Below are positions 5,254-29,266 of a DNA stretch of 64,000 bases, in pieces (positions within the stretch are counted from its first letter, which is position 1; each line of letters starts with the position of its first letter). A program made the translations under genes and the position numbers. Source of the stretch: Acinetobacter pragensis (GTDB taxonomy: Bacteria; Pseudomonadota; Gammaproteobacteria; Pseudomonadales; Moraxellaceae); assembly GCF_001605895.1 (NCBI RefSeq), contig NZ_LUAW01000001.1, forward strand, positions 62,001-126,000. Direction: 5' to 3'. A model generated the notes under the pieces. It had not been told where the DNA came from. It did not search any database and was given only the letters and a program-made list of their open reading frames with translations.

Positions 5254-5455
5254 CGCTGATTTAGAGCCTCATTTTATGCAATATGGCGCTTTATCGCAGA
5301 GAAAATATTTCTAATAAAGCATTTTTAGCGCAATAAAAATCTTAAAAAATGGGCTTAAAGGGAAAATATACTTTTATGATGTGGGAATGCGAAAAAAAAT
5401 CCTAAAATGAATGAAAATTGCTGAATCTTCGGAAATTAATCCCTCAGTGCATTCG
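5254..5455. other. AT-rich intergenic stretch before the first 222-bp repeat
   Basis: No gene and no clear terminator is visible here. The last bases lead into the CTACTATAG sequence that opens the repeated element and may serve as its -10 region. Confidence 0.4.
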
Positions 5456-5677
5456 CTACTATAGATCTCAAGGGTGTGACAGAGATCGAAAAGAGCAGCA
5501 TGCTGTGAGGGCGCAAAACGCGAGAGCAGTACTTACCCACAAGGTCTCGATTCGGCTTAGGACGCTATAAATCACAAGTTTATAGGCTATAAGATCATGA
5601 CTTACCAAGTCAGGATAGTTGAAGTAAACAATTCAGTTTTCTCTTACACCGCCCTAAAAATTCGCAGCAAAGCACAA
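5456..5677 (+). ncRNA. 222-bp intergenic element, copy 1; candidate structured small RNA
   Basis: This stretch recurs at 6774-6995 with a single difference (A5570 versus G6888) and no gaps, while the flanks are unrelated. It lacks a convincing ORF but can fold. GATCTC pairs with GAGATC near its start, CTATAAA (5565-5571) pairs with TTTATAG (5579-5585), and GACTT pairs with AAGTC around 5600-5612. The only substitution lies in the second stem and turns an A-U into a G-U pair, which fits selection on RNA structure. It opens with a TACTAT -10-like sequence, so transcription is probably left to right. Multicopy C4-antisense-like small RNAs are known in Acinetobacter; membership is possible but unverified. 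Confidence 0.55.
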
Positions 5678-6495: not shown

Positions 6496-6773
6496 GCCGC
6501 AAGTCTTGCGTTGCGCGGGCTATCTTCACATTCACGCTGTATGGGGCTGGATTTTTTTAAAAAAAACAGCCATTAGAAAATGTTGAATAGGCAAAAGCAT
6601 TAGTGGCATTGTTGGGTTGAATAAAATTTCATTAATTGTGTTTTTATGCGCTGATAAATCCGTTTTTTGTTCTTATTGGAAATAATTTTTCAATATTTAG
6701 GATTAAGTGGAAAATTTTATTAAAAAATACAAAGATTTCGCACGTTCAGGGAAACAATCCCGCTGGCTATTGT
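6496..6773. other. intergenic stretch before repeat copy 2
   Basis: No gene or terminator seen. The sequence is AT-rich, especially 6600-6740. Confidence 0.35.
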
Positions 6774-6995
6774 CTACTATAGATCTCAAGGGTGTGACAG
6801 AGATCGAAAAGAGCAGCATGCTGTGAGGGCGCAAAACGCGAGAGCAGTACTTACCCACAAGGTCTCGATTCGGCTTAGGACGCTATAGATCACAAGTTTA
6901 TAGGCTATAAGATCATGACTTACCAAGTCAGGATAGTTGAAGTAAACAATTCAGTTTTCTCTTACACCGCCCTAAAAATTCGCAGCAAAGCACAA
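6774..6995 (+). ncRNA. 222-bp intergenic element, copy 2; candidate structured small RNA
   Basis: It equals copy 1 at 5456-5677 in 221 of 222 positions. Homology stops sharply: the bases before C6774 and after A6995 differ from copy 1. The sole change, G6888, keeps the CTATAGA/TTTATAG stem as a G-U pair. The segment around 6861-6880 (CTCGATTCGGCTTAGG) faintly recalls the conserved part of phage C4 antisense RNAs, from memory only. No classical terminator ends the element, so the 3' end of any RNA is unclear. Confidence 0.55.
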
Positions 6996-17091: not shown

Positions 17092-18264
17092 ATGCCAAAC
17101 TCATTTTTATCTGCTCATGCATGGCTCAGGCCGCTTGCGCCGCGCGACCCGCATGAAAAGCACCGCGTCGCCACTTCCTTAGAGCTGCTGTTTGATCTAA
17201 TTTTTGTGGTCGCAATTGCGACGGCGGGACAGCAGCTGCATCATGCCATTGTTGAAAACCATTTAGCGCACGGCTTAACGCTTTATGGCATGGTGTTTTT
17301 CGCGCTGTGGTGGGCATGGATGAATTTCAGCTGGTTTGCCTCTGCTTATGATAATGATGATGCGCTGTACCGGATTTTAACGTTTATACAGATTATTGGC
17401 TCATTGGTTATTGCGGCTGGCATTCCTAGCGCATTTCAGCAGCAGGACTTTGATATCATTATTATCGGCTACGCCATTATGCGCCTGAGTCTGGTCACGC
17501 AATGGCTCCGTGTTGCAAAACATGATGCTGAACGGCGCAAAACAGCGCTGCGTTATGCCTTCGGTATTATTCTGGTGCAATGCGGCTGGCTGCTGTTTCA
17601 CTTTTCACCTATCCACTTTACGGTTTATTTATTTGTGCTGCTGGCGGCGGCTGAGCTGTGTGTGCCTGTTTTTGCAGAGGCTGCCAGCAGAACACCGTGG
17701 CATGCGCATCATATTGCAGAGCGCTATTCACTGCTGACAATTATTGTTCTGGGTGAATCGATTGTCGGCTGTTCAATTGCAATTACGGATGCGCTGAACA
17801 ATCAGCGCTTCAGTACCGAGCTGATTTTTCTGATGATTGGCGGCTTGCTGATGATGTTTACCATGTGGTGGGCCTATTTTGACAGTGAAATTGCAGAAAG
17901 GCTGAACAGCCGTAAGATGGCTTTTGCATGGGGCTATGGCCATTTTTTTGTTTTTATCAGTATTGCGTCTATTGGCGCAGGCTTGGCGGCGGCTGTTGAT
18001 GTGGTATCGCATAAGGCGCTGATCAGCTCAGTTCAAGAAAGCTATTTTGTGGCAGTCAGTTTAGTGCTGTATACGGCAAGCCTTTATGTGCTGCACGAGG
18101 CGCACCATCAGCATGGGTTAAAAAAATGGATTTACCCGCTGACAGTGGCAATTGTTCTATGTATACCCGCTGTGATTGAGCCTGTGGGCTATGCGATTTT
18201 TGCCATGGCTGTGGTCTATGCGCTAAGGCTGATTTTTACAAAATCTTGTTCAGTAAGGGCATAA
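17092..18264 (+). CDS. ltrA: low temperature requirement protein A (LtrA) family membrane protein
   Basis: This 390-residue protein is hydrophobic along most of its length with about ten membrane segments. It opens with the family signature RVATSLELLFDLIFVVAIA (residues 26-44) and includes HIAERYSLLTIIVLGESIVG, shown here by its ends HIAERYSLL and LGESIVG, near residue 210. LtrA was named from a Listeria mutant unable to grow in the cold; its biochemical role is unknown. The ATG lacks a strong ribosome binding site. Confidence 0.88.
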   Translation: MPNSFLSAHAWLRPLAPRDPHEKHRVATSLELLFDLIFVVAIATAGQQLHHAIVENHLAHGLTLYGMVFFALWWAWMNFSWFASAYDNDDALYRILTFIQIIGSLVIAAGIPSAFQQQDFDIIIIGYAIMRLSLVTQWLRVAKHDAERRKTALRYAFGIILVQCGWLLFHFSPIHFTVYLFVLLAAAELCVPVFAEAASRTPWHAHHIAERYSLLTIIVLGESIVGCSIAITDALNNQRFSTELIFLMIGGLLMMFTMWWAYFDSEIAERLNSRKMAFAWGYGHFFVFISIASIGAGLAAAVDVVSHKALISSVQESYFVAVSLVLYTASLYVLHEAHHQHGLKKWIYPLTVAIVLCIPAVIEPVGYAIFAMAVVYALRLIFTKSCSVRA

Positions 18265-19712: not shown

Positions 19713-20429
19713 TTATTTTTTGATCAAATTGTAAGCCATTTTTGTGTCGTCCAATTGCACTAAAGACGCATGCCTTGCCGACAGAGGATCTTTGTTTTCA
19801 ATGGCCGTTAAAATAGCTTTATGCCGTGGCAGTGAATGGCCTTGCAAATTGGGCCGGAGGCTGGTCACTTGAATCGACTGCTGCAGCGGTAAAACCAGCA
19901 TTTTTGACATATAGGCGAGCAGATCGTTATGAGTCGCTTTGGCAATTGCAAGATGGAAATCGATGTCGGGCTGTATAAAATCTTCTACGGTCGCTGCTTT
20001 TTCCATGCCGTCGTATGCTTTTTTAATTTGTACGATATCTTCTTCAGTTGCCGTACTGGCCGCTATATAAGCCAACTCAGGTTCTAAAACTCGGCGAACA
20101 GTTGAAAGCGTTTTAAAAAATTCATTTTCAGGTGTGGATTGGATGAGCCAAAAAAGCACATCAGGGTCTAATAAATACCATTCATCTTTGGGGCGAACGA
20201 CGGTGCCAATTTTAGGGCGTGAATAAGTCAAGCCTTTGGCATTAAGTACCCGTATTGCTTCACGAAAAACTGGACGACTAACCTGAAATTCCTCACATAG
20301 CTCTGCCTCAGAAGGAATCTTTTCATTTTCGGCAATTTCGCCGGAAACGATTTTCAGACCCAATTGCTGCACAATAAGCGCATGCTGGCTTTTACTTGGA
20401 ACGGGGTTTTTATAGTCGGCGTTACTCAT
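19713..20429 (-). CDS. GntR-family regulator, FCD subfamily
   Basis: The 238-residue protein has an N-terminal winged helix, including KIPSEAELCEEFQVSRPVFREAIRVL (given by its ends KIPSEAELC and FREAIRVL). A helical FCD ligand-binding domain follows, with Asp/His metal ligands in DFHLAIAKATHN and SLPRHKAIL. FCD regulators bind small organic acids and usually repress the genes for their use. It lies between the dehydratase and the hydroxyacid dehydrogenase and is the obvious regulator of the divergent sugar-acid operons. I use ATG 20429; a TTG at 20438 opens the frame slightly earlier. Confidence 0.88.
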   Translation of the reverse strand: MSNADYKNPVPSKSQHALIVQQLGLKIVSGEIAENEKIPSEAELCEEFQVSRPVFREAIRVLNAKGLTYSRPKIGTVVRPKDEWYLLDPDVLFWLIQSTPENEFFKTLSTVRRVLEPELAYIAASTATEEDIVQIKKAYDGMEKAATVEDFIQPDIDFHLAIAKATHNDLLAYMSKMLVLPLQQSIQVTSLRPNLQGHSLPRHKAILTAIENKDPLSARHASLVQLDDTKMAYNLIKK

Positions 20430-20451
20430 ATTCTGCAATTAATCATATTTG

Positions 20452-20464
20452 ACCATAGTATGGT
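20452..20464. promoter_or_regulatory. 13-base palindrome upstream of the GntR gene
   Basis: ACCATAGTATGGT is perfectly symmetrical around a central G and sits 23 bases before the regulator start, between it and the dehydratase gene. It could be an autoregulatory site, but it differs from the two operators at 22257-22344. Confidence 0.35.
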
Positions 20465-20509
20465 ATAGATGACCCTGCGAATTAACAAGATCATCTATTT
20501 TTTAGCCAC

Positions 20510-22243
20510 TTAGTGTGAATGACGCGGGACTTCTGAACCTCGGCAACCGACAAGAAAGTCAAAGTCACAGCCTTCATCAGCCTGAAGCACATGATTCACA
20601 TACAGCTGACGGTATCCGCCAATAAAGTTAGGCTTAGGCGGCTCTGATAAATTGGCCAGACGATGCTGCAATTCTTCATCGCTGATATCTAAATGCAGTC
20701 TGCCTGCATAAGCATCAAGTTCGATAAAGTCGCCATTTTGCACAGCGCCTAATGGGCCGCCTGCCATCGCTTCAGGTGCAACGTGCAGCACAACGGTGCC
20801 GTAAGCTGTTCCGCTCATGCGGGCATCGGAAATACGGACCATATCGGTGATGCCTTTTTCAAGAATCTTTGGAGGCAAGCCCATATTGCCGACTTCGGCC
20901 ATGCCCGGATAGCCTTTGGGCCCAGCATTTTTCAGTACAAGGATGCAGCTTTCATCGACATCTAGATCAGGATCAGCAATACGCGCTTTATAGTCGTCAA
21001 AGTTTTCAAATACCACCGTGCGGCCGCGATGTTTCATTAATTCCGGTGAAGCCGCGGAAGGTTTTAACACCGCGCCTTTAGGTGCAAGATTGCCGCGCAA
21101 GATGCACATTCCGCCATCTTTGCGCAGCGGGTTATCTATTTGACGGATCACTTCATCATTGTAAATCGGTGAGTTTTGACAGTTGTCCCAGATGCTTTCA
21201 CCGTTGACGGTCAGCGCTTGCGGATGCGGCAATAAATTATGTTCACCCATGCGGCGGATGACTGCAGGCAAGCCGCCGCTATAATAAAATTCTTCCATCA
21301 GGAAACGGCCTGAAGGCTGTAAATCGACAATGGTTGGCATGCCGCGGCCGACACGGTTCCAATCATCCAGTTCTAAATCTACCCCAATACGTCCAGCGAT
21401 GGCTTTTAAATGAATCACTGCATTGGTCGAACCGCCAATGGCTGCATTTACTTTAATGGCATTTTCAAACGCTTCTTTGGTTAACACTTTAGACAGCGTC
21501 AAATCTTCTTTGACCATGTCTACAATCCGCATGCCGGATAAATGCGCCAAAACATAACGGCGTGAATCTACCGCAGGAATCGCCGCATTGTGCGGCAATG
21601 AAGTGCCTAAGGCTTCAGCCATGCACGCCATTGTCGATGCCGTGCCCATGGTATTGCATGTGCCTGCTGAACGCGACATGCCCGCTTCTGCAGACAGGAA
21701 TTCATTCAGGTCAATTTTGCCGGCTTTTAATTCTTCGTGCATTTGCCAAACAATAGTCCCTGCGCCGATGTCTTTGCCTTTATGTTTTCCGTTAAGCATC
21801 GGGCCGCCAGTCACCACAATTGCCGGAACATCACAGCTTGCAGCGCCCATCAGCAGTGCAGGGGTGGTTTTATCACAGCCTGTAAGCAGCACAACGCCAT
21901 CCATTGGGTTGCCGCGAATGGCTTCTTCTACATCCATACTGGCCAAATTGCGTGTCAGCATAGCGGTCGGGCGTAAGTTGGATTCGCCATTCGAAAAAAC
22001 TGGGAACTCTACGGGATAGCCGCCCGCTTCTAAAATCCCTTTTTTTACATGTTCGGCAATCTTACGGAAATGCGCATTGCACGGGGTCAGCTCTGACCAC
22101 GTATTGCAAATGCCAATAATTGGGCGTCCATCAAATTCATGATCTGGAATCCCTTGGTTTTTCATCCAGCTGCGGTACATAAATCCGTTTTTATCTGTCG
22201 TTCCGAACCAGGCGGTTGAGCGTAAAGGTTTCTTTTCTGACAT
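20510..22243 (-). CDS. IlvD/EDD family sugar-acid dehydratase (pentonate dehydratase type)
   Basis: This 577-residue enzyme belongs to the iron-sulfur dehydratases. The three expected cluster cysteines are Cys55 (TPCNAH), Cys123 (LTGCDKTTPA) and Cys196 (SAGTCNTMGTAS). Its length, the SRSAGTCNTMG context and the C-terminal GCDFDFLVG match the L-arabinonate/D-xylonate dehydratase branch rather than dihydroxyacid dehydratase. The reaction would give a 2-keto-3-deoxy sugar acid, the substrate of the AraD1-type enzyme encoded divergently. AAGGAT lies eight bases before its ATG. The precise sugar acid (arabinonate, xylonate, galactonate or similar) is not fixed by sequence. Confidence 0.88.
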   Translation of the reverse strand: MSEKKPLRSTAWFGTTDKNGFMYRSWMKNQGIPDHEFDGRPIIGICNTWSELTPCNAHFRKIAEHVKKGILEAGGYPVEFPVFSNGESNLRPTAMLTRNLASMDVEEAIRGNPMDGVVLLTGCDKTTPALLMGAASCDVPAIVVTGGPMLNGKHKGKDIGAGTIVWQMHEELKAGKIDLNEFLSAEAGMSRSAGTCNTMGTASTMACMAEALGTSLPHNAAIPAVDSRRYVLAHLSGMRIVDMVKEDLTLSKVLTKEAFENAIKVNAAIGGSTNAVIHLKAIAGRIGVDLELDDWNRVGRGMPTIVDLQPSGRFLMEEFYYSGGLPAVIRRMGEHNLLPHPQALTVNGESIWDNCQNSPIYNDEVIRQIDNPLRKDGGMCILRGNLAPKGAVLKPSAASPELMKHRGRTVVFENFDDYKARIADPDLDVDESCILVLKNAGPKGYPGMAEVGNMGLPPKILEKGITDMVRISDARMSGTAYGTVVLHVAPEAMAGGPLGAVQNGDFIELDAYAGRLHLDISDEELQHRLANLSEPPKPNFIGGYRQLYVNHVLQADEGCDFDFLVGCRGSEVPRHSH

Positions 22244-22344: not shown

Positions 22345-22412
22345 TTTTAAATTATAGAGATTTTCCTTTGGCATGATGCCTAAGAATAAATATATGAAAG
22401 GTGGAGTCGAAT

Positions 22413-23717
22413 ATGGATTTCGAAAAGGATGTTATACGGACGGTGACATATAAGCTGATCCCTGCATTAGTCATACTTTATCTTGTCGCCTATATCGACC
22501 GGGCGGCGGTCGGCTTTGCTCATTTACATATGGGCGCAGATGTCGGCATTGGTGACGCGGCCTATGGGCTGGGCGCTGGCCTGTTTTTCATTGGTTATTT
22601 TCTGTTTGAAGTTCCCAGCAATTTACTGTTGGATAAATTCGGTGCGCGCAAGTGGTTCACGCGAATTTTATTGACATGGGGCTTAATCACCATGGCAATG
22701 GCGCTGATTGAAGGCCCGAAAAGCTTTTATGCGCTCAGATTTTTACTTGGTGTGGCTGAAGCCGGATTCTTTCCAGGTGTCTTATATTTAATTACCCAGT
22801 GGTATCCGGTACGGCACCGCGGAAAAATCATGGGCATGTTTGTCTTGTCTCAGCCGATTGCAATGATGATTGCAGGCCCATTGGCAGGCGCATTGCTTGG
22901 CATGGACGGGGTAGCGAATCTGCATGGATGGCAATGGCTGTTTATTGCTGTCGGTTTACCAGCGGTTATTCTTGCTTTGCCTACCTATTTGTACTTGCCG
23001 GATGATATCAATAAAGTTAAATGGTTAAGCGATCAGCAGAAAATCTGGCTCAAAAATGAGTTGGTTAAAGATGAATCTGAATATGATCAAACACGGCATG
23101 CCAATCCGCTGCATGCATTAAAAGATAAACGCGTATTAACCCTTGCGCTTTACTATCTTCCCGTCACCTTAAGTATTTACGGCCTAAATCTATGGCTGCC
23201 GACCATTATTAAACAGTTTGGCGGCGGAACAGATCTGCAAGTGGGCTTTTTGTCCAGCATTCCTTATGTGTTCGGCATTATCGGCTTGCTGATTATTCCA
23301 CGCAGCACCGACCGTTTAAACGACCGTTACGGGCATCTCAGTTTTCTGTATGCCACAGGCGCCTGTGCGATGTTCTTGAGCGCGTGGTTAAGCTCGCCTG
23401 TCTTGCAGCTAGCTGCACTGTCTGTTGTCGCTTTTTGCCTATTCTCCTCGACTGCGGTTTTCTGGACTTTACCGGGACGTTTTTTAACAGGGGCAAGTGC
23501 TGCTGCCGGCATTGCATTAATTAATTCAGTCGGCAATTTAGGCGGCTATCTTGGGCCTTATGGCATCGGGTTATTAAAGGAATATACAGGCAACATGGCT
23601 GCAGGCTTGTATTTCCTCTCTATCGTTATGGTCTTCGGCCTGATTTTGACTTATTTCGTTTACTCAAAATTGGAAAGAAACAAATCTCAAAAATTGAATG
23701 TTAATAAACAAGCGTAA
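22413..23717 (+). CDS. MFS transporter, anion:cation symporter family
   Basis: This 434-residue carrier has about twelve membrane segments. It begins YKLIPALVILYLVAYIDRAAVGFAH (given by YKLIPAL and YIDRAAVGFAH), the hallmark of the ACS family that takes up sugar acids such as galactonate, glucarate and tartrate. The LLDKFGARKWFTRI loop follows TM2. GGTGGAG at 22400-22406 fits ATG 22413 (the frame also holds a GTG at 22401). It is first in the rightward unit and likely imports the aldonate that the cluster degrades. Confidence 0.87.
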   Translation: MDFEKDVIRTVTYKLIPALVILYLVAYIDRAAVGFAHLHMGADVGIGDAAYGLGAGLFFIGYFLFEVPSNLLLDKFGARKWFTRILLTWGLITMAMALIEGPKSFYALRFLLGVAEAGFFPGVLYLITQWYPVRHRGKIMGMFVLSQPIAMMIAGPLAGALLGMDGVANLHGWQWLFIAVGLPAVILALPTYLYLPDDINKVKWLSDQQKIWLKNELVKDESEYDQTRHANPLHALKDKRVLTLALYYLPVTLSIYGLNLWLPTIIKQFGGGTDLQVGFLSSIPYVFGIIGLLIIPRSTDRLNDRYGHLSFLYATGACAMFLSAWLSSPVLQLAALSVVAFCLFSSTAVFWTLPGRFLTGASAAAGIALINSVGNLGGYLGPYGIGLLKEYTGNMAAGLYFLSIVMVFGLILTYFVYSKLERNKSQKLNVNKQA

Positions 23718-23729
23718 AGGGAATTCCGA

Positions 23730-24728
23730 ATGAATGTTATTCAGTTTGAAAATCAGCATGATCAGCGCGCTGTCGGTATTGTGGAAAATAATACGGTTAA
23801 ATGTGTGAACGGCGTAGAGAGCGTGCGCGATTTAGCTTTAATGGCCATTAAGAATCAGTTCAGTTTGGAACAGCAAGTGCAGCAGCTTGGCTATAGTGAT
23901 GAAAGCTATGACTATTCATTTTTATTGGCAGAATTAAAAGTCCTTCCGCCTTTAGATCATCCTGATACGGCGCATTGCTTTATATCCGGTACAGGCTTGA
24001 CCCATTTGGGTTCAGCATCTACGCGCGACAAAATGCATCAGCAGAATTTAAATGATGCTGCATCAGTGACCGACACCATGCGCATGTTTCAGTGGGGCGT
24101 TGAAAAAGGCAAGCCTGCCGCAGGTGATGTCGGCGCGCAGCCTGAATGGTTCTATAAGGGGGATGGCTCTATTGTTGTTCGCCCCGGTACAGATTTGCCG
24201 TTGCCTCCATTTGCAGAAGATGGGGGAGAGGAGCCAGAAATTGCAGGCTTATATGTGATCGGTCCAGATTCAAAACCGTACCGCATCGGTTTTGCGCTGG
24301 GGAATGAATATTCCGATCACGTTATGGAACGCCGCAACTATTTATATCTTGCGCATTCTAAATTACGTTTTTGCAGTTATGGGCCAGAGCTGCGCACAGG
24401 TGAACTTCCCAACCATTTAGTCGGCACAAGCCGTTTGCGCCGCGATGGAGAAGTCATCTGGGAAAAAGAGTTCTTATCAGGTGAAGACAATATGTGTCAC
24501 AGCCTAAGCAATCTCGAATATCACCATTTTAAATATCAGCAATTTTTAAAACCTGGGGATGTGCACATTCATTACTTCGGTACTGCGACGCTGTCATTTG
24601 CAGACGGTATGCAGGCGCAAGTAGGCGATGAATTTGAAATTGAAATGAAAGAATTCGGCCATCCGCTGAAAAATAAGCTTGCACATACTCAGCCTGAATT
24701 ACCAATTGGTTCGGTTATTACACTTTAA
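23730..24728 (+). CDS. araD1: AraD1-type FAH family 2-keto-3-deoxy-pentonate dehydratase
   Basis: This 332-residue protein has the fumarylacetoacetate hydrolase fold pattern of the AraD1/GguC group: CFISGTGLTHLGSAS, the PEWFYKGDGSIVV region, GGEEPEIAGLYVIG with its metal-binding Glu residues and ALGNEYSDHVMERRNYLYLAHSK (quoted by ends ALGNEYSDH and YLAHSK). In the Weimberg route this enzyme turns 2-keto-3-deoxy-pentonate into 2,5-dioxopentanoate. It follows the transporter by 12 bases and precedes the aldehyde dehydrogenase by 10, so all three share an operon. Confidence 0.85.
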   Translation: MNVIQFENQHDQRAVGIVENNTVKCVNGVESVRDLALMAIKNQFSLEQQVQQLGYSDESYDYSFLLAELKVLPPLDHPDTAHCFISGTGLTHLGSASTRDKMHQQNLNDAASVTDTMRMFQWGVEKGKPAAGDVGAQPEWFYKGDGSIVVRPGTDLPLPPFAEDGGEEPEIAGLYVIGPDSKPYRIGFALGNEYSDHVMERRNYLYLAHSKLRFCSYGPELRTGELPNHLVGTSRLRRDGEVIWEKEFLSGEDNMCHSLSNLEYHHFKYQQFLKPGDVHIHYFGTATLSFADGMQAQVGDEFEIEMKEFGHPLKNKLAHTQPELPIGSVITL

Positions 24729-24738
24729 GGACACCGCG

Positions 24739-26313
24739 ATGATTATGGGAAAAAACTTTATTGCAGGCCAGCGCAGCGCGCTGGGAAGTGAAATCCTGCA
24801 CAGCATCAATGCCTCAACAGGCGAAGCGCTGGCCTATGAATTCCATCAGGCCACAGAGCAGGAAGTCAGCCAGGCCTGTGAAGCCGCCAGCCAAGCGTTT
24901 AAAAGCTACCGCCGCACTTCGCCTGAACAGCGCGCTCAGTTTCTTGAAGCGATAGCCGATGAACTGGATGCGCTGGGGTCGGATTTCCTTGATACCGTTT
25001 CCCAAGAAACAGCCTTGCCGATTGCCCGCCTGCAAGGCGAACGCGGCCGGACCAGCGGCCAAATGCGCTTATTTGCCAAAGTCTTGCGCCGCGGGGATTT
25101 CCTCGGAGCGCGCATTGATACGGCATTGCCTGAGCGCCAGCCCATGCCGCGTGCCGATCTGCGTCAAATTAAAATTGGCGTGGGCCCCATTGCGGTCTTT
25201 GGCGCCAGCAACTTCCCGCTGGCATTTTCAACCGCCGGCGGTGATACCGCTTCCGCTTTAGCCGCGGGCTGCCCCGTGGTGGTCAAAGCGCACAGCGGCC
25301 ACATGGCCACGGCAGATTTGGTGGCGCAAGCCATTGAGCGGGCGGCAGAAAAAACCCAGATGCCTAAAGGCGTATTCAACATGGTCTATGGCAACGGTGT
25401 GGGCGCATCGCTGGTCAAGCATCCGCTGATTCAAGCGGTCGGCTTTACCGGCTCCCTGAAAGGCGGCCGGGCGCTGTGCGATATGGCCGCGGCCCGCCCG
25501 CAGCCCATCCCTGTCTTTGCAGAAATGAGCAGCATCAATCCAATGCTGATGCTGCCTGCCGCGCTTAAAAGCCGCGGAGCGCAAATCGCTCAGGATCTGG
25601 CTGATTCTGTGGTAATGGGCTGCGGTCAGTTCTGCACCAGCCCGGGCTTGGTGATTGGGATCAAATCACCAGAATATGGCCAGATGATAGAAGCCTTGGC
25701 TGATATTCTGAATGCCAAGCCAGCACAGACCATGCTGAATGCCGGCACATTAAAAAGTTATGCTTCAGGTCTGGAGCATTTAGCGGCGCATGACGGCATT
25801 CAGTATTTAGCCGGTCAGGCGCAGCAAGGGAATCAGGCGCAGCCTCAGCTGTTTAAAGCTGATGTGCAGCTATTGCTGGCAGCGGATCAGCTGCTGCAGG
25901 AAGAAATCTTTGGCCCGGCGACCATCGTGATTGAAGTGGAAGATCAGGCGCAGCTGATTCAGGCGCTCGACAGCATGAACGGCCAGCTAACGGCCTCGCT
26001 GATTGCGGATGAAGCGGATTTAGCTGAGTTTGCAGAAGTCGTGCCAGTACTGGAAGAAAAAGCTGGACGTTTATTGCTGAACGGCTATCCAACCGGCGTG
26101 GAAGTGTGCGATGCCATGGTGCATGGCGGACCGTATCCGGCAACATCAGATGCGCGGGGCACGTCTGTCGGTACGCTGGCCATCGAGCGCTATCTGCGCC
26201 CGGTGTGCTATCAGAACTATCCGCAAAGCTTATTGCCGGAAGCCTTGCGTGATGAGAATCCGCTGAATCTGCTGAGACTGGTCAACGGCGAGATGACCCG
26301 GAACGCAATCTAA
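24739..26313 (+). CDS. 2,5-dioxovalerate (2-oxoglutarate semialdehyde) dehydrogenase
   Basis: This 524-residue aldehyde dehydrogenase has the catalytic Cys299 in GQFCTSPG and the general-base Glu262 in FAEMSSINP, plus GASNFPLAF and TGSLKGGRAL. Its form, starting MGKNFIAGQ and ending in a long tail with VHGGPYPATSDARGTSVG, matches type III 2-oxoglutarate semialdehyde dehydrogenases. These complete the pathway to 2-oxoglutarate. The start at ATG 24739 has AAGG eight bases upstream. Sampled lines count 61-63% GC versus about 40% in neighbours, so it was probably acquired separately. The last 103 bases recur inverted at 27604-27706. Confidence 0.87.
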   Translation: MIMGKNFIAGQRSALGSEILHSINASTGEALAYEFHQATEQEVSQACEAASQAFKSYRRTSPEQRAQFLEAIADELDALGSDFLDTVSQETALPIARLQGERGRTSGQMRLFAKVLRRGDFLGARIDTALPERQPMPRADLRQIKIGVGPIAVFGASNFPLAFSTAGGDTASALAAGCPVVVKAHSGHMATADLVAQAIERAAEKTQMPKGVFNMVYGNGVGASLVKHPLIQAVGFTGSLKGGRALCDMAAARPQPIPVFAEMSSINPMLMLPAALKSRGAQIAQDLADSVVMGCGQFCTSPGLVIGIKSPEYGQMIEALADILNAKPAQTMLNAGTLKSYASGLEHLAAHDGIQYLAGQAQQGNQAQPQLFKADVQLLLAADQLLQEEIFGPATIVIEVEDQAQLIQALDSMNGQLTASLIADEADLAEFAEVVPVLEEKAGRLLLNGYPTGVEVCDAMVHGGPYPATSDARGTSVGTLAIERYLRPVCYQNYPQSLLPEALRDENPLNLLRLVNGEMTRNAI

Positions 26314-26318
26314 AAAAA
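26216..26318 (+). repeat. left arm of a 103-bp inverted repeat flanking the lactonase gene
   Basis: This is the last part of the aldehyde dehydrogenase gene plus its stop codon and first following bases. It matches the reverse complement of 27604-27706 in 101 of 103 positions; the two differences are near the stop codon. Confidence 0.9.
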
Positions 26319-26344
26319 GAGAGGCCCTATTCGGGCCTCTTTTC
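26318..26344 (+). terminator. terminator between aldehyde dehydrogenase and lactonase
   Basis: AGAGGCCC (26320-26327) pairs with GGGCCTCT (26333-26340), preceded by an A run and followed by only three Ts. It leaves 19 bases before the lactonase start, so lactonase expression probably depends on readthrough. Confidence 0.75.
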
Positions 26345-26362
26345 AATCACAAGGATGAGAAA

Positions 26363-27562
26363 ATGAAAATAAATACATTTAAACAATTAGGCCTGCTGTC
26401 TGGAATTGTATTGGCGATGAACTGCTATGCGGACTCACTGCCATCAGCCGAGAATAAGCAGCAGGAATTTTATATAGGCACGTGGACCGCAAGCGCTCCA
26501 GATGGGCTTGGTGCTTTAAAATCAGATTTTCCAAGCCAAGGCATTTATAAGGTCCGTTTAAATGCAGACGGGACTTTATTGCCGGTAAATTATGTTGAAG
26601 CGGATAATCCATCATGGCTGGTCATTGATAAAAAGAACCAATATCTTTATGCAACAAATGAAGACAATGCCGATGCTGACGGCTCTGTTTCAGCATTTAA
26701 AATAGATCAGGAGGGCAATTTAACCTTCCTGAATGCAGTCAATAGCTTGGGGCAACAGCCGACACATGCTGAAATTTCGCCGGATAATCATTTTCTGTTT
26801 GTCGCGAATTATTCTGCCCGGCCTGCTCATGCAGGTGTTGCTGTATTTGCAATTCTTGACAATGGTTCATTGGGGCCGGCAGTACAGAACATTCCTTTCT
26901 TGAAGGGAAGCAAAGCCTTGCCTGAGCGCCAAATAGATGGTCATGCGCATTCCATTACCTTCGATCCAGAGGGTAAAAAAGTCTATTTAGCAGATTTAGG
27001 AAGCGATCTGATTCAGGCATATGACTATCTTCCTAAAGCAAAGCATCCCTTAAAAAGAAATGAAACGTCAGATTTGCATTTTCCGGCATGCAGCGGGCCC
27101 CGTCATTTGAGATTTAGTAAAAATGGCGATTACGCATATGCTTCCACAGAAATGGGCGCTCAGGTTGTAGTCTTTAAAAGAGCAGATGGAAAATATACCA
27201 AGATTCAGCAAGAAAATTTAACTGAGCAGAACAGTGCGGATTTTAAGGGCGGCGCGGGGCTGCTTCTGTCTCCAGACCAACGGTTTTTATATGTGGGAAA
27301 TCGGCGTAAAAGCAATGAAATTGCAGCCTATTCAGTTGACCAAGAAACAGGACGGTTAACTTTGGTTGGACGTTATTCGAGCGGCGGTATTGAGCCGCGC
27401 GCATTCGATATTGATGCAACCGGTCAGTATTTAATTGTAGCCAACGTTTTTAGCAACACGGTGAGCCAATTCAAACGCAATATAGAAACAGGGGCATTAA
27501 CTCCAACACGTATGGCTTTACAGATTGGCTTGCCCACAGATATTAAATTTATTTCGAAATAA
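26363..27562 (+). CDS. exported lactonase of the 6-phosphogluconolactonase (YbhE) beta-propeller family
   Basis: This 399-residue protein opens with a signal peptide (hydrophobic core GLLSGIVLAMN, likely cut after CYA before DSLPS), so it should act in the periplasm. The mature part shows the repeating blades of a seven-bladed lactonase: FYIGTWTAS, NPSWLVIDKKNQYLYATNE, PTHAEISPDNHFLFVANY, HAHSITFDPEGKKVYLADLG and RAFDIDATGQYLIVAN. Unlike cytosolic YbhE it is exported and lies in an aldonate cluster. The likely substrate is therefore an unphosphorylated aldono-lactone made by periplasmic sugar oxidation. AAGGATGAG precedes the ATG. Confidence 0.82.
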   Translation: MKINTFKQLGLLSGIVLAMNCYADSLPSAENKQQEFYIGTWTASAPDGLGALKSDFPSQGIYKVRLNADGTLLPVNYVEADNPSWLVIDKKNQYLYATNEDNADADGSVSAFKIDQEGNLTFLNAVNSLGQQPTHAEISPDNHFLFVANYSARPAHAGVAVFAILDNGSLGPAVQNIPFLKGSKALPERQIDGHAHSITFDPEGKKVYLADLGSDLIQAYDYLPKAKHPLKRNETSDLHFPACSGPRHLRFSKNGDYAYASTEMGAQVVVFKRADGKYTKIQQENLTEQNSADFKGGAGLLLSPDQRFLYVGNRRKSNEIAAYSVDQETGRLTLVGRYSSGGIEPRAFDIDATGQYLIVANVFSNTVSQFKRNIETGALTPTRMALQIGLPTDIKFISK

Positions 27563-27582
27563 ACGGGTATTAGGAAAAAAAG

Positions 27583-27610
27583 AGAGGCCCTATCCGGGCC
27601 TCTTTTTTTT
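27583..27610. terminator. terminator after the lactonase gene
   Basis: AGAGGCCC pairs with GGGCCTCT over TATCC, with seven As before and eight Ts after. The hairpin is nearly identical to that at 26320-26340 and can act in both directions. Confidence 0.9.
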
Positions 27611-27706
27611 AGATTGTGTTTCGGGTCATCTCGCCGTTGACCAGTCTCAGCAGATTCAGCGGATTCTCATCACGCAAGGCTTCCGGCAATAAGCTTTGCG
27701 GATAGT
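27604..27706 (-). repeat. right arm of the inverted repeat: relic of an aldehyde dehydrogenase 3' end
   Basis: Read on the minus strand this segment encodes the last ~31 residues of the aldehyde dehydrogenase (from YPQSLLPEALRDE to the stop), with one residue changed (Thr for Ala next to last). Nothing upstream of 27706 continues the gene. It is either the remaining tail of a second, deleted copy or an inverted duplication. Confidence 0.9.
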
Positions 27707-27982
27707 GATGTGCAGATGTTATTGGGTTAAGAATAGAGTTTCCTTAATTTTTTGGCATTAAGATAGTCTGTGGAATAATAATATCAACTTGAAATTATGC
27801 AAATTAGGGTCTTCTCTATCTTTATATTTAACGGTTATTTAAAGTTTTATATTATTGCAAAATGAATTACATTATTTTTTTGTTTTGAACATAAAAAAAC
27901 CGCCATTCATGGCGGTTTTTTTATGATATTTTATGCGTTGCATGATGTTTAAAAGTAAAAATTTACCTTTAAAATCAATATG
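27707..27982. other. AT-rich spacer between relic and nrdB terminator
   Basis: No gene is seen. The sequence turns AT-rich right after the inverted-repeat arm and leads to the nrdB terminator hairpin. Confidence 0.4.
27893..27923 (-). terminator. terminator of nrdB
   Basis: AACCGCCAT pairs with ATGGCGGTT over two bases, with A and T runs on both sides. It lies about 60 bases past the nrdB stop on the minus strand and may act both ways. Confidence 0.85.
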
Positions 27983-29266
27983 TTACCAGCTTAATGCGCC
28001 GCCGGTTTGGTAGTCTGTTACGCGAGTTTCGAAGAAATTCTTCTCTTTGCGCAAGTCCATCATTTCTGACATCCACTGGAATGGATTATTTACGCCAGCA
28101 AATTGTTCAGGCAAGCCCAGCTGAGCTAAACGGCGGTTACAGATGAATTTTAAGTATTCTTCCATCATTGCTGCATTCATGCCCAATACGCCGCGCGGCA
28201 TAGTGTCGCGTGCGTATTCAATTTCAAGCATTGTGCCTTCCAAAATCATTTGAATGATTTCTTGCTGGAATTCGGCTGTCCATAAACCTGGGTTTTCGAT
28301 TTTGATCTGGTTGATCATATCGATACCGAAGTTCAAATGCATAGACTCATCACGCAAAATGTACTGGAACTGCTCAGCAACACCATTCATTTTATTACGG
28401 CGACCCATCGACAAGATTTGGCTGAAACCGCAATAGAAGAAGATGCCTTCAAGCACGCAATAGAATGCAATTAAGTTGCGAAGCAAGATTTGATCGTTCT
28501 CAGGCGTACCGGTTTGGAAAGTCGGGTCGCTTAAAGACTGAGTATATTTCAGGCCCCACGCTGCTTTACGCGCAACAGACGGCACTTCGCGGTACATGTT
28601 GAAGACTTCGCCTTCATCCATACCCAAAGATTCGATACAGTATTGGTAAGCATGTGTGTGAATCGCTTCTTCAAATGCTTGGCGCAAGATGTATTGACGG
28701 CATTCAGGGTTGGTGATGTGGCGGTAAATCGCTAATACCAAGTTATTCGCCACCAAAGAATCGGCAGTCGAGAAGAAACCTAAAGAACGCATTACAATCG
28801 TACGCTCATCTTCAGTTAAGCCGTTTTCAGACTTCCAAAGCGCGATGTCATGGTTCATGTTGACTTCTTGCGGCATCCAGTGGTTTGCGCATCCGTCTAG
28901 ATATTTTTGCCAAGCCCATTCGTATTTGAACGGTACCAGCTGGTTTAAGTCAGCGCGGCAGTTGATCATTGCTTTGTCGTCAACCTGTACACGCTGTGCG
29001 CCCATTTCAAGCTCTTCCAAGCCAGGCGCGGCATCAAGTTGCTCTAGGGCAGCAGATGCTCTTTCCATTGAATCGGTTGGATTTGATCCGCGACTTCCAG
29101 CGGTTCGAGCGGGTTGTGCAGCTGCCACATGCGACGATGATTGGAGTGCATCAGATACCACTTGCGAATCAGCCGTTTTTTTCGGCTCGACGGGCGCAGG
29201 CTGGTGAGCTTGTGCAGCTTGTTTCGGTTCATCATCTTCGAAATCGTCCCAACTTAGGATAGACAT
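27983..29266 (-). CDS. nrdB: class Ia ribonucleotide reductase, beta subunit
   Basis: NrdB holds the di-iron tyrosyl radical cofactor used to make deoxyribonucleotides. The 427-residue protein has a disordered Ala/Gln/Ser-rich extension of about 85 residues. The core motifs then follow: [14 protein letters not shown] (metal ligand Asp169), [15 protein letters not shown] (Glu200, His203 and radical Tyr207) and the ending [18 protein letters not shown] that docks to NrdA. The sequence resembles chlamydial NrdB overall. It keeps Asp and Tyr where that subclass Ic protein has Glu and Phe, so a normal tyrosyl radical is expected. It lies downstream of nrdA. Confidence 0.95.

Follow-up and report, generated by a model that had tools for sequence, protein, structure and literature searches.

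Duplicated catabolic genes of Acinetobacter can undergo concerted evolution, as catIJF and pcaIJF do. Paralogues that face each other can also rearrange the DNA between them. In Saccharomyces, a 24-kb flip/flop segment carries inverted paralogues at its ends, which are kept alike within a genome by recombination, and different species carry the segment in one orientation or the other (PMC9731477). Inversion through short repeats is described for bacterial insertion sequences, whose terminal inverted repeats recombine and flip the interior (PMC3004938). Here we analyze a stretch of 64,000 nucleotides (nt) from Acinetobacter pragensis (contig NZ_LUAW01000001.1, positions 62,001 to 126,000), hereafter the window, in which a lactonase gene lies between two inverted 103-nt arms. 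The left arm is the end of an aldehyde dehydrogenase (ALDH) gene that closes an MFS-AraD1-ALDH operon, which we call operon A; elsewhere in the genus a second ALDH gene stands behind a dehydratase gene, DehydB, in an operon DehydB-ALDH, which we call operon B. We conclude, with a probability of roughly 85%, that two near-identical ALDH genes once lay in facing orientation on either side of the lactonase and that the repeat is their remnant.

The two arms lie 1285 nt apart, and no other inverted repeat in the window reaches 45 nt. An earlier note on this DNA had described the repeat and its match at 101 of 103 positions, and both are borne out: one mismatch, at 26301 (CGG/CGA), leaves Arg in place, and the other, at 26305 (GCA/ACA), is the Ala/Thr change that the note had foreseen. 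When a 183-nt query around the end of the ALDH gene (26180-26362) is compared with the whole genome, three matches are returned at E <= 0.001. One is the query itself, another is the right arm together with its hairpin (127 nt, 94%), and the third is the right hairpin, read in direct orientation. The near-identical hairpins that had been reported beside both arms are indeed present, with 31 of 32 positions shared between 26312-26343 and 27575-27606, but they are direct rather than inverted repeats, despite the inversion of the arms. On the plus strand the left hairpin, which folds with -18.6 kcal/mol, is followed by four T and then CAATC, and the right hairpin by eight T. A consensus terminator scan lists the left hairpin on the minus strand only and the right hairpin on both strands. 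From the end of the left hairpin (26343) to the ATG of the lactonase (26363) there are 19 bases, the same count as in the note.

The origin of the right arm is suggested by related genomes. Our sample comprised 175 genomes of the genus, of which 31 have a lactonase match (E <= 1e-30) and 32 an ALDH match (E <= 1e-200). By coordinates, the two genes occur together in three genomes: that of the window, G085, and G087. In all three, the end of the lactonase, the hairpin, and the ALDH tail follow one another in the same order and are colinear. The window aligns to G087 from 26492 to 27706 (82.6% over 1216 nt) and to G085 from 26462 to 27706 (71.9% over 1281 nt). Both alignments end exactly at the end of the relic, while G087 and G085 run on into ALDH, with a full convergent gene in G087 and 248 coding nt up to the contig end in G085. 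Because this junction is colinear in three genomes and the alignment ends where the relic ends, we read the right arm as the stump of a convergent ALDH gene, of which the relic represents only a part: 103 nt of the tail, including the stop codon. That the right arm might be the tail of a deleted second copy had been one of two suggestions in the earlier note, which named the locus in relatives as a check; the full convergent ALDH found at that position in G087, together with the colinear junctions, now supports this suggestion well. In the window's own genome the missing partners were not found. A search for DehydB, a second IlvD/EDD-type dehydratase that is 42% identical to DehydA of operon A's cluster in G087, returned DehydA (44%) and another dehydratase (35%) as its best matches. 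No second ALDH of this type was found among eight candidates scored per genome, the only other ALDH above the threshold being 61% identical.

The three layouts differ in what surrounds the lactonase. The gene order is MFS> AraD1> ALDH> lactonase> <tail in the window, DehydB> lactonase> <ALDH <AraD1 <MFS in G087, and DehydB> ALDH> lactonase> <ALDH tail, reaching the contig end, in G085. Relative to operon A, the lactonase of the window is therefore oriented opposite to that of G087. In G087 the first ALDH codons are fused to a lactonase pseudogene behind DehydB (L034 9140-9190). This fusion is the scar of that genome's own lost copy B, a second, independent ALDH loss at this cluster. The relic in the window is itself a patchwork: at both sites that distinguish the arms it has the base of G087, its 28 nt on the lactonase side are those of G087, and further in it agrees with the window's own ALDH. 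It differs from the G087 ALDH at 14 of 95 positions, the distal part being like the window's own gene, and its A at 26301 is shared by 28 of 34 ALDH copies. Such a mosaic fits a later conversion of the tail, as far as can be judged from two distinguishing sites.

The lactonase and operon A appear to have different histories. At four-fold degenerate sites the lactonase differs from the G087 pseudogene at 23 of 114 positions (0.20), whereas six genes of the operon A cluster differ from their G087 counterparts at 0.50-0.59; given this disparity, we propose that the two were joined by recombination. Against G085 the lactonase differs at 62 of 103 such sites (0.60), and with its relatives in G160 and G022 synonymous sites are saturated (pS 0.76 and 0.83), which makes dN/dS unusable. 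Since the lactonase faces opposite ways relative to operon A in the window and in G087, the sequences indicate that a rearrangement through ALDH did happen, by inversion or by one-sided import.

Our model starts from the arrangement in the genus, with copy A of the ALDH gene at the end of operon A and copy B behind DehydB. Operons A and B converge in the G085 and G087 lineage, one on either side of the lactonase. By recombining, the ALDH copies would stay alike and could also swap which of them flanks the lactonase. In the lineage of the window, the lactonase would have been left behind the ALDH of operon A, while DehydB was lost, as was the other ALDH apart from about 103 nt. The surviving tail would then have been kept identical to the end of the intact gene, or have been made so, possibly through renewal by conversion. 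The joining itself may have come about by inversion between the ALDH copies or by import of an ALDH-anchored fragment. Inversion followed by deletion and import both yield the observed order, and we rate them about equal.

The traffic between ALDH copies that this model calls for can be sought elsewhere in the genus. In the loci that we fetched, operons A and B are separate units, and many Acinetobacter have two ALDH copies; DehydB has an adjoining ALDH in 17 of the 19 genomes fetched, the exceptions being G087 and G022. Copies A and B of G116 are identical at 1566 of 1566 nt, and their identity reaches beyond the coding part that was compared by 9 nt upstream and 5 nt downstream. A 258-nt piece of copy B in G041 matches its own copy A at 256 positions and copy B of G116 at 245. 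In G085 the flanks mirror each other at 286 of 286 nt, as far as the contig reaches; the 5' end of ALDH-A lies on another contig and agrees with copy B at 281 of 282 nt. Across ten genomes with two full copies, the identity of A and B within a genome ranges from 77.4% to 100%, and in four (G046, G116, G123, and G156) it exceeds both of the best same-locus identities. A tree of 34 full copies (18 A and 16 B; the partial copies of G145, G041, and G085 were omitted) likewise places the A and B of one genome as nearest relatives in 4 of 10 cases. The tree does not separate A from B, and a single clade of B copies is rejected with the identical G116 pair left free (p-AU 7.8e-7). From these comparisons, recombination between the ALDH copies is, in our judgment, real but uneven.

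The base composition of the ALDH gene may carry a trace of the same process. Its guanine-plus-cytosine (GC) content (Table 1) compares with 0.453-0.459 in the two upstream genes of the operon and 0.433 in the lactonase, and at four-fold sites it reaches 0.75, against 0.49-0.59 in the neighbors. Among the genomes compared, the four-fold GC excess over neighboring genes is largest in the window (+0.20), G085 (+0.18), and G116 (+0.17), and it is near zero in most others; G085 and G116 are genomes with identical or near-identical ALDH copies. The 61% identical paralogue in the window's genome has an excess of -0.16. Over 11 genomes, GC excess and copy identity are not significantly correlated (rho 0.46, p 0.15, with the identity for G085 set by hand at 0.998 from its two ends), and rho falls to 0.03 when G085 and G116 are removed. 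GC-biased gene conversion in bacteria has been proposed from genome-wide data (PMC4450053), and its action on the homogenised ALDH genes is only a lead. We think it unlikely that facing ALDH copies form a long-lived recombination engine which drives mutual conversion, the flipping or swapping of genes, and a rise in GC, such that the window's ALDH would still be marked by its lost partner. Should the GC excess hold, the paired ALDH copies of Acinetobacter would lend themselves naturally to testing for GC-biased conversion in bacteria.

We also considered the sequence beyond the relic. When 27707-27880 is aligned to ALDH genes, the number of dinucleotide shuffles per 1000 that reach the same score is 0 for the ALDH of the window, 4 for that of G087, 7 for G130, and 137 for G085; pieces matched for GC reach it in 1 of 149 cases for G087, 0 of 28 for G130, and 8 of 300 for the window. 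A search with nhmmer using ALDH reported the known tail and nothing further beyond 27706. A 296-nt query for the spacer between the relic and nrdB, the gene of the ribonucleotide reductase small chain, has matches in 142 of the 175 genomes, but these are uninformative as to where the spacer came from, because the listed ones fall mostly on a palindrome at about 27890-27925. Among spacers near nrdB in other genomes no clear match was found, save for such a palindrome in G116. The palindrome at 27890-27925 is near-perfect and terminator-like, and it follows the ribonucleotide reductase gene.

Several observations weigh against the history proposed here. Homogenisation is not universal: 6 of the 10 genomes with both full copies do not have A and B as nearest relatives, and the identity of the two is down to 77.4% in G159. 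On the ALDH tree there are 13 changes of the A/B label, and 500 shuffles gave a mean of 11.5 (range 6-15); this count shows that the A and B copies are mixed, not that they are paired. The path through the repeat of about 1.6 kb in G085 may be an assembly choice, and copy A of that genome was deduced from two contig ends. The base at 26305 common to the relic and G087 is found in 10 of the 34 copies. Divergence from G087 at 18 genes near the ribonucleotide reductase locus ranges from 0.21 to 0.56, so the lactonase, at 0.20, may simply have descended vertically, and operon A would then be the exception. The intermediate, with two full ALDH copies around a lactonase oriented as in the window, was seen in no genome, and the direct orientation of the two hairpins is left without explanation by a relic. 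As for 27707-27880, pieces of the window not matched for GC reach its ALDH score in 171 of 600 cases, other genes of the same operons score as high against it (MFS up to 27.5, AraD1 up to 24.0), and our placement rule holds for only 8 of the 34 ALDH copies.

Other routes to the repeat were weighed against the same evidence. Import by natural transformation would lead to the same relic, and we regard it as quite possible, at a little under even odds: a fragment consisting of ALDH, lactonase, hairpin, and ALDH tail would have entered from a relative of G087, with a crossover inside ALDH on the left and a non-homologous join on the right at 27706. For naturally competent bacteria, integration that is one-sided in this way has been described (PMC3240628), which gives the route a precedent, and the lactonase lies far closer to G087 than do the genes of operon A. 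Import is also in keeping with G130, where the same operon stands beside nrdB and the lactonase is not between them; among nine genomes looked at, operon A adjoins nrdB in two, the window and G130. Yet the distal part of the relic resembles the window's own ALDH and not that of G087, so conversion would be needed as well, and the value of 0.20 lies near the low end of the 18 other genes. An inverted duplication of recent origin would need no second gene at all: a single backward copying of the ALDH tail, such as strand switching at the hairpin could produce, would account for short arms that are 98% alike and end at a palindromic hairpin. We nevertheless reject it as improbable: the right junction is also present in G087 and G085, and there the tail is part of a longer ALDH. 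The same recurrence in two other assemblies makes an assembly artefact scarcely credible, and it too was rejected; although the genome is a draft of 72 contigs, and repeats break contigs in G085 and G041, both arms lie within one 216-kb contig and differ at two sites.

The earlier note's other suggestion was an invertible segment, and it finds support as history only, since the lactonase has opposite orientations in the window and in G087. That the arms now serve as a working switch, flipping the lactonase on and off within the population, is very improbable, even with two 103-nt arms that are 98% alike and an interior of 1285 nt. The arms are gene tail sequence rather than recombinase sites, and no recombinase family was found in 19 of 20 open reading frames of at least 120 amino acids between 13715 and 39798 (Pfam; the search took in neither the frame at 17092-18264 nor the rest of the genome). 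Of the 31 genomes that have a lactonase match, 3 show the layout, by coordinates, and in both relatives that share it the lactonase is broken, by 2 stops in G085 and 7 in G087. A flip would leave the dehydrogenase whole, as had been noted. It would move no promoter and no choice of intact coding sequence, for in a consensus scan the sites past the relic (27752 on the plus strand, and others) lie outside the arms; a flip today would set the lactonase behind no recognisable promoter, and nothing indicates that it is used. The absence of a promoter just before the lactonase, which would suit a switch and had been argued from lack of room, agrees with that scan, in which the plus strand has no promoter-like site from 26000 to 26578 and the first, at 26579, is inside the gene. 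Given this absence and a left hairpin with just four T behind it, the simplest source of lactonase transcripts would be readthrough from the ALDH operon.

Table 1. Features of the sugar-acid cluster and of the inverted repeat (positions in the window)
Feature	Position	Strand	Remarks
GntR-type regulator and IlvD/EDD-type sugar-acid dehydratase (DehydA)	19713..22243	-	Divergent half of the cluster
MFS transporter and AraD1-family gene	22401..24728	+	Upstream part of operon A; PF07690; NF040903 GguC/AraD1, 550 bits against a cut-off of 340
ALDH of operon A	24739..26313	+	Intact; PF00171; start ATG; GC 0.573
Left arm	26216..26318	+	3' end of the intact ALDH gene including stop; inverted repeat, 101/103
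Left hairpin	26312..26343	+	Four T on the plus strand; direct repeat of 27575-27606
Lactonase, 399 aa	26363..27562	+	Intact, no internal stop; PF10282 Lactonase, E 1.1e-87
Right hairpin	27575..27610	.	T runs on both strands
Right arm	27604..27706	-	Probable tail of a lost convergent ALDH copy; colinear with the junction in G087 and G085
Possible further, degraded ALDH remnant	27707..27842	-	Alignments to ALDH score above most shuffles but not above other operon genes
Ribonucleotide reductase small chain gene (nrdB)	27983..29266	-	Fixed right-hand neighbor; PF00268

The gene families of the cluster suggest a pathway from an aldonate to alpha-ketoglutarate. For the ALDH itself, 25 of 40 NCBIfam families were listed, and none of the equivalogs among these scored up to its cut-off. 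Relatives of the lactonase occur in unrelated contexts: one in G160 (L149 8893-10101, 65%) stands beside VgrG-like and YcaO genes, and one in G022 (L036 9700-10917, 63%) beside genes for an ANTAR regulator, an NMT1-like protein, and a DcaP porin. A plasmid origin was considered and rejected, as 436 plasmid records match ALDH and none spans 80% of ALDH plus lactonase. Three Acinetobacter baumannii records listed as plasmids are 3.7-4.1 Mb long and look like chromosomes filed under that heading. Among direct repeats, a single family reaching 45 nt was reported for the window (5431-5677 and 6749-6995; 247 nt, 96% identical, 1318 nt apart).

If the arms are indeed what is left of two facing ALDH genes, a striking repeat is explained as the residue of duplicated operons, and the locus shows how an operon can gain a gene, the lactonase, by recombination through a shared paralogue. 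The process, in which duplicated genes rearrange and leave a relic of a paralogue, is of a known kind, and our literature search terms returned no paper on this locus. As with catIJF and pcaIJF, near-identical catabolic genes occupy two operons of one genome, but the genes are others and in the window one copy has been reduced to a relic. The inversion of insertion sequences (PMC3004938) resembles our model in that short repeats recombine and flip what lies between them; here the repeats are gene ends and not transposon ends, and the flip itself would be a reconstructed event. The best analogue that we have seen is the yeast flip/flop region as described in PMC9731477, where inverted paralogues at the ends of a segment are likewise kept alike within a genome and the interior likewise occurs in both orientations across species. 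The yeast repeats are 4 kb long and intact in many strains, in contrast to a 103-nt relic, and here three species have the layout, with an unambiguous change of orientation only between G087 and the window.

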